Source: an uncultured Selenomonas sp. (GTDB lineage Bacteria > Bacillota > Negativicutes > Selenomonadales > Selenomonadaceae). From it: DNA of 32,678 bases. The position numbers and the translations under genes are program-made. Position 1 is the first letter of the stretch. Every line of letters starts with the position of its first letter. Under the pieces are notes generated by a model. That model did not search any database, was not told the DNA's origin, and saw nothing but the letters and a program-made list of their open reading frames with translations. The stretch covers positions 1 through 32,678 of the forward strand of contig CACZFT010000026.1 of assembly GCA_902780535.1 (NCBI GenBank), written 5' to 3'. Shown one piece after another: positions 3,478-3,639 of this stretch.

Positions 3478-3639
3478 TCAGTTTTCCTGCTGTTCCTCTG
3501 CCTCAATCAAATCATCTCTGAGCCCGCGCATGGCGCGCTTGGCGATGGAAATGGGGCAGTCGGGCGAGCAGATCTGGCAGTGGCCGCAGCACGCCTCGAT
3601 GGCGTCGAGCGCGGCTTGGACTTTTTCTTTCTGAAGCAT
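3478..3639 (-). CDS. 53-residue peptide with ferredoxin-type CxxCxxCxxxCP motif
   Basis: This short gene lies 15 bases after the nhaC stop on the same strand, with AAAGG about 12 bases before its ATG. The product starts [14 protein letters not shown] and has five cysteines: C17, C18, C21, C24 and C28. C18-x2-C21-x2-C24-x3-C28-Pro is the pattern that binds one 4Fe-4S cluster in bacterial ferredoxins, here with His20 between the first two ligands. The rest is charged and helical, ending in an acidic EAEEQQEN tail. There is no signal peptide or membrane segment, so it should be cytoplasmic. I do not recognise a family. It may bind iron-sulphur or zinc; operon position suggests a link to the antiporter, but that is inference. 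Confidence 0.7.

Follow-up and report, generated by a model that had tools for sequence, protein, structure and literature searches.

A strongly constrained 53-residue miniprotein with a single Cys4 motif in Selenomonadaceae: a candidate [4Fe-4S] half-site protein

The window analysed here, that is, the whole stretch of 32,678 nucleotides from an uncultured Selenomonas sp. (contig CACZFT010000026.1), contains at positions 3478..3639 of the minus strand a gene for a 53-residue miniprotein, supported by its translation, its homologues, dN/dS values and an AlphaFold model, and consisting of a helix, a four-cysteine loop and a second helix. The open reading frame is complete, runs from 3639 to 3478, and begins with ATG and ends with TGA; the plus-strand reading of the same positions is an antisense frame. 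A preliminary description of this DNA had located the gene at the correct coordinates and had named no strand. It had also listed Cys18, Cys21, Cys24 and Cys28 followed by a proline, and all four, together with Pro29, are found in the translation, with a fifth cysteine, Cys17, that the description lacks. The codons from Cys18 to Pro29 (3553..3588, minus strand) encode a C-x2-C-x2-C-x3-C-P loop, the four cysteines of which are present in all 47 full-length copies of the gene.

The pattern C..C..C...CP occurs in one of the 422 six-frame stretches of at least 40 residues in the window, and 200 dinucleotide shuffles of the window gave a mean of 0.0 for this pattern and of 0.025 for C..C..C...C, so the presence of the motif in the miniprotein is not explained by chance. 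A second cluster motif is missing, as had been supposed, since the window peptide and each of the 47 copies contain one motif. The remark that the peptide is far smaller than a ferredoxin turned out to be wrong: the two-cluster clostridial ferredoxins among the PDB matches have 55 residues, and it is the missing second motif, not the length, that distinguishes the miniprotein from a ferredoxin. At E<=1, the window peptide matched no family in either Pfam or NCBIfam.

The upstream neighbour, located at 3655..5175 on the minus strand and thus co-directional, is an nhaC-type Na+/H+ antiporter gene (PF03553, E 8e-54), as had been described. It is the only gene of the host genome that matches PF03553, and its score against the TIGR00931 NhaC equivalog (40 bits) lies below the cut-off of 370. 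The gap between the nhaC stop codon and the miniprotein ATG is 15 bp. The miniprotein gene had been credited with its own ribosome-binding site, and a candidate AAAGG (3652..3656, minus strand) is indeed present, overlapping the nhaC stop codon; it is, however, only modest and ends 12 nt before the ATG, which is a long spacing. On the 3′ side of the miniprotein stop codon, a GC-rich hairpin (3434..3463, minus strand; −31.9 kcal/mol, z −6.1) probably marks the end of transcription; it was not among the hairpins listed by the terminator pattern scan, and its T-run is short. On the opposite strand, a glycoside hydrolase family 1 gene (2023-5178, plus) has no stop codon at the point where its relatives end. 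In the relatives G002 and G006 this protein ends with ...YWYKKVIETNGEDL and one further residue before the stop, and in the window the frame continues as a 1051-residue open reading frame antisense to the miniprotein gene and to the whole of nhaC. The missing stop could be accounted for by a deletion, or by a fault of the assembly, near position 3430.

As was found by a single-sequence search of 100 relatives, the miniprotein has matches in 35 of them, comprising 32 of the 61 genomes of the host family, two from another family (f7) and G073, whose match contains an internal stop and was not counted as a family member. A contig scan with the single sequence as the query yielded two loci only. 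A profile (A1) was built from 29 members, leaving out G011, G013, G039, G084 and also G002, whose start codon contains NN and whose contig shows the motif twice; this copy was excluded from the dN/dS estimates as well. The repeated motif region of G002 (locus L034, about 4176-4440) surrounds the NN and is probably an assembly join. In the class, the profile matched 50 of 380 genomes at E<=1e-3, of which 48 were accepted as convincing; the matches in G094 (E 4e-4) and G076 (E 8e-4) fall within long reading frames of 418 and 407 aa, respectively, and were not counted. The host family accounts for 46 of its 189 genomes, distributed over 18 of 30 genera (restricted to genomes of good quality, the figure is 33 of 99), and the carriers in the class outside it are the two f7 genomes. 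Two carriers have named records, Selenomonas sp. SUG490 and the uncultured Veillonellaceae RUG043, and the host family (f1) is accordingly taken to be Selenomonadaceae. In the phylum sample, 12 of 398 genomes matched at E<=1e-3, namely three host-family members, one peptide with a Cys3His motif in genome G501 and eight short matches, mostly in long proteins with cysteine motifs. A mobile origin of the miniprotein was considered and rejected: the plasmid search gave no match, and no relative was found on viral contigs.

The 47 full copies, a set without G266 (20 residues at a contig end), are 48-63 residues long (median 56). Besides the invariant cysteines, Pro29 is conserved in 45 of the 47 copies and is replaced by histidine in two. 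Among the six copies of the host genus, pairwise dN/dS ranged from 0.02 to 0.50 in 14 pairs, one further pair being dS-saturated; pooling the 406 pairs of 29 copies gave a pS of 0.75 versus a pN of 0.27, with the variation greatest at third codon positions. The miniprotein gene is therefore a real and strongly constrained coding gene. A lack of homologues that retain the cysteines and a lack of coding constraint had been named in the preliminary description as the outcomes that would speak against it; the gene came through both tests, because the cysteines are retained in 47 of 47 copies and dN/dS is well below 1.

The AlphaFold model, obtained from three sequences and free of cofactor, consists of a helix at residues 2-18, a loop at 19-28 and a helix at 29-52 (pLDDT 81.4, pTM 0.59), with an N-terminal helix predicted to be amphipathic. 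A Foldseek search with this model gave 13 weak matches, none at E<=0.001 and none to an Fe-S protein. Rescoring of 21 chains gave Z values of up to 7.2 for generic helical hairpins, such values being common for helical models; no Fe-S protein was among these chains, an outcome that excludes nothing. The best weak profile matches of family members are to [4Fe-4S] proteins, namely GlpC (7 of 29 members, best E 7e-4), Fer4_8 and Fer4_21 (6 of 29 members each, best E 0.003-0.004) and SdhB, and the best match in the PDB is FwdG (E 0.009). The one member with bits shown for a Fer4 model reached 17.5 versus a cut-off of 27. In the host genome, no protein with Fer4 motifs scored above 13 bits with the family profile, again over the motif only. 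What resemblance there is to ferredoxins spans about 15 residues around the cysteines and does not reach the curated cut-offs where these are shown; as it sits on the cysteine motif alone, descent from a ferredoxin is not shown. The weak matches to DUF2321, ELMO_CED12, Rua1_C, Ada_Zn_binding, Erythro-docking and SidM_N, below the cut-off where one was shown, were taken as chance.

The gene surroundings were compared across genera by searching the flanks of each copy, up to 4 kb in both directions, with the window antiporter (tblastn); the upstream stretch was shorter than 1 kb at L153 (355 bases), L040 (604), L158 (628), L043 (708), L157 (839) and L057 (934). At these short-upstream loci the upstream stretch was seen to contain tRNA genes or, at L158, a DUF362-like gene. 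An nhaC gene was found near the miniprotein gene at all seven loci of the host genus (g1) and at none of the 40 loci elsewhere. Thus the linkage to nhaC, the persistence of which the preliminary description had put forward as a check, persists within the host genus but not in other genera; the adjacency is peculiar to one genus and gives no sign of partnership. At ten loci of five genera (g7, g20, g21, g24 and g30) the miniprotein gene is preceded by a tRNA array with tRNA-Leu(gag) as its last gene. Seven of these loci were read base by base, and a terminator-like hairpin was seen by eye between the tRNA and the miniprotein gene in each, with a −10-like TATGAT in three of them. At other loci, also by eye, the gene follows clpB-like, murB-like, chemoreceptor-like or DUF362-like genes, or a GDSL-like gene behind rpoN. 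Na+:solute symporter-like genes were seen by eye near the g10 and g36 loci, and none at most loci; a general sodium link was therefore dismissed as chance.

The best short-frame match of the profile outside the class is the 45-residue peptide of G501. It belongs to a set of standalone miniproteins of 44-45 residues in another class of Bacillota (G501, G531 twice, G467 and others), in which the motif is C-x2-C-x3-H-x3-C (C-x2-C-G-x2-H-x3-C) and the last cysteine is followed by proline in most and by phenylalanine or leucine in two. A reverse search of the 398 genomes with the G501 peptide retrieved its own kind (G531 twice and G467) and, at E 0.002-0.004, the window peptide and the G013 copy, that is, two of the three host-family carriers in the sample. 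The hhalign comparison of the Cys3His miniproteins with the window family gave a probability of 92.4 and a score of 33.5; flank-shuffled controls with the Cys/His core kept averaged 17.8 (sd 3.5), and none of 200 reached 33.5. Weak matches of one Cys3His relative to PF11047 and to NCBIfam SopD counterparts were dismissed as chance.

In five of ten Cys3His loci an ECF sigma gene lies directly upstream, as judged with one sigma profile, and among the five loci without it L199 starts near a contig edge. The miniproteins of L190, L192, L193, L194 and L196 begin 79-98 bp downstream of the sigma gene. This arrangement suggests a regulator, and the Cys3His miniproteins near ECF sigma genes are possibly very small anti-sigma factors or other sigma-linked regulators. 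The hint was not transferred to the window family, for which an ECF sigma partner was rejected: with the same sigma profile, this sigma gene was found within 4 kb at none of the 47 loci, and there was no co-occurrence in the 61 host-family genomes, where it is present (E<=1e-12) in 7 of 32 carriers and in 11 of 29 non-carriers. The motif of the Cys3His miniproteins was also observed at the end of MarR-type proteins of L170, L172, L175 and L178 (C-x2-C-G-x2-H-x3-C-P; one confirmed by Pfam, the others by eye). Proteins of about 120 residues at L171 and L173, which match no Pfam or NCBIfam families, contain C-x2-C-G...H-x3-C and then an NRSRQAL helix.

It seems that the most suitable reading of these data, to which we assign a probability of about 0.5, is a free-standing miniprotein that carries a [4Fe-4S] cluster on its four cysteines and serves as an electron carrier or a redox sensor. 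The part of this reading that concerns the metal, namely that the four cysteines hold [4Fe-4S], we consider to have a somewhat better than even chance. The cluster is favoured because the Cys4 motif has ferredoxin spacing and a Cys-Pro, the hosts are anaerobic and there is a published precedent; against it stand the histidine at the third ligand in the nearest family outside the class and the gene neighbours, which point to no pathway. The chain of about 53 residues would fold into an amphipathic helix, the four-cysteine loop and a second helix, with the cysteines ligating [4Fe-4S] clusters. In a ferredoxin with two motifs, each cluster is bound by cysteines one to three of one motif together with the Cys-Pro of its counterpart; for a chain that has a single motif, one would therefore anticipate either self-pairing, with two clusters shared between two chains, or a monomer wrapped around one cluster. 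By analogy, we infer that a homodimer sharing two clusters would be the most natural arrangement. Such a protein might shuttle electrons as a small soluble carrier, or it might be an accessory protein that senses oxygen or redox state in these anaerobes. In the host genus, its gene would be co-transcribed with nhaC, at the 3′ end of that transcript.

The preliminary description had thought of a redox- or iron-sensing partner for the ion transporter; that the miniprotein serves the NhaC antiporter in this way, as its dedicated regulator or subunit, is very improbable. The two genes are adjacent and co-directional at seven of seven loci of the genus, with the short gap of the window and, in one genome, with overlapping nhaC stop and miniprotein start codons; nevertheless, nhaC is missing from the vicinity of the gene at the 40 loci of other genera, where other lineages have it after clpB, murB or other genes, and at seven tRNA-linked loci it was seen by eye to come after a terminator-like hairpin, in three of them with a −10-like TATGAT. 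Of the proposal, a [4Fe-4S] site is plausible, with zinc as a rival on account of the Cys3His relatives, and the ion-transporter partner is unsupported. Most simply, the gene would be self-contained and would, in a single genus, have come to be carried on the nhaC transcript. It is likewise improbable, if not to the same degree, that the miniprotein is a cluster or iron delivery factor (metallochaperone) that passes metal to client proteins through Cys17 or a cysteine of the tail. Such a role is suggested by the copies with Ala17, 13 of 15 of which have a cysteine within the last six residues (tails ECS, CECS, CTC and CDHC), versus 1 of 22 copies with Cys17 and 1 of 10 with Leu or Val17. However, the Ala17 copies may form one clade, so that the pattern may amount to one or two events, nine Leu17 copies have the extra cysteine neither at position 17 nor in the tail, and no fes/isc/suf or nif gene was noticed adjoining the miniprotein gene in an unsystematic look.

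Zinc is a more serious rival, owing to the Cys/His exchange in the relatives, even if we find it doubtful. The miniprotein would then be a helical hairpin binding structural or redox-labile zinc through Cys4 (Cys3His in the distant relatives) and acting through the binding of a partner, for example a transcription regulator, much as small zinc-dependent anti-sigma factors do. At zinc sites, cysteine and histidine often replace each other, and Cys3His, with histidine as the third ligand, is a pattern more usual for zinc. The standalone relatives of about 45 residues carry exactly this pattern, their hhalign score exceeds every flank-shuffled control, half of their examined loci have an ECF sigma gene directly upstream, and a similar motif ends several MarR-type regulators. 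On the other hand, C-x2-C-x2-C-x3-C-P is the ferredoxin spacing, and we know of no zinc site that has it; the ECF link is absent from the window family, both at its loci and in the distribution among carriers and non-carriers, and so is the Hx3Cx2C of zinc anti-sigma domains. A reading that embraces both metals, namely one homodimeric helical-hairpin scaffold, an alpha-helical counterpart of the half-ferredoxin, whose Cys4 site binds [4Fe-4S] in Selenomonadaceae and whose Cys3His site in another class of Bacillota is zinc-like, with a metal swap inside a single family, is rather unlikely and is put forward tentatively.

Ferredoxin evolution is proposed to have passed through half-ferredoxins before the duplication, and to our knowledge very few natural ones are known. 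A constrained family occurring in 18 genera and easily made as a peptide offers a natural test of cluster holding by one Cys4 motif, and if the Cys3His relatives are true homologues, the two would form a natural pair for studying the exchange between zinc and Fe-S. The comparison of loci also corrects a guess based on an operon, as the neighbourhood in one genus had been misleading. In the literature search, no paper was found on this family, on the helical form or on the Cys4/Cys3His pairing.

Among known systems, the alpha-helical ferredoxin domains of GlpC, SdhB/FrdB and HdrC (Fer4_8) resemble the miniprotein in having C-x2-C-x2-C-x3-C-P followed by a helix, and in the AlphaFold model helix 29-52 starts directly after Cys-Pro, as in the Fer4_8 type. 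These proteins, however, have two motifs per chain and the miniprotein has one, although a homodimer could supply the second; its scores against Fer4_8-type models are far below the cut-offs shown and concern the motif only. The clostridial 2[4Fe-4S] ferredoxin (PDB 1fca, 55 aa) is similar in length and identical in its first motif, but the miniprotein lacks the second motif and its beta strands are not predicted. A two-cluster bacterial ferredoxin was rejected, with one motif per chain and no curated profile matches for the window peptide. The Cys3His miniproteins share the length class, the N-terminal helix pattern and cysteines in register (hhalign probability 92), and differ in the histidine at the third ligand, a loop longer by one residue and the ECF sigma genes at five of ten loci. 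The zinc anti-sigma domains (ASDI/ZAS, e.g., RsrA) are also small helical metal proteins with Cys/His ligands, and the Cys3His relatives, too, lie by ECF sigma genes. ASDI domains are defined by an Hx3Cx2C motif across helices 2 and 3 (PMC7406223); for the window family an ASDI domain was rejected, as Hx3Cx2C is absent from the 47 copies and no sigma gene was found near the 47 loci with one sigma profile.

The closest likeness is to the natural single-motif "semidoxins" published in 2025 (Jagilinki et al., PMC12648291), owing to which the single-motif idea is already known. In that paper, the survey was made through InterPro ferredoxin signatures, and the PD1 peptide ("protodoxin-1") of Thermoanaerobacter, with a single motif, bound Fe-S as a monomer and a dimer at −438 mV (PMC12648291); its text contains no occurrence of Selenomonas or Negativicutes. 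Like PD1, the miniprotein is short, comes from an anaerobe, has C-x2-C-x2-C-x3-C-P only once and would be expected to work as a dimer or a monomer. PD1 has about 30 residues and is modelled as beta-alpha-beta, whereas the window family ranges over 48-63 residues, with a helix-loop-helix model. The miniprotein thus shares with semidoxins, as they are characterised there, the single motif in a very short protein but not the length of about 30 residues, and in place of beta-alpha-beta its model, built from only three sequences and no cofactor, is all-helical. By analogy, we favour the view that the miniprotein would work most like a semidoxin in which helices replace the strands.
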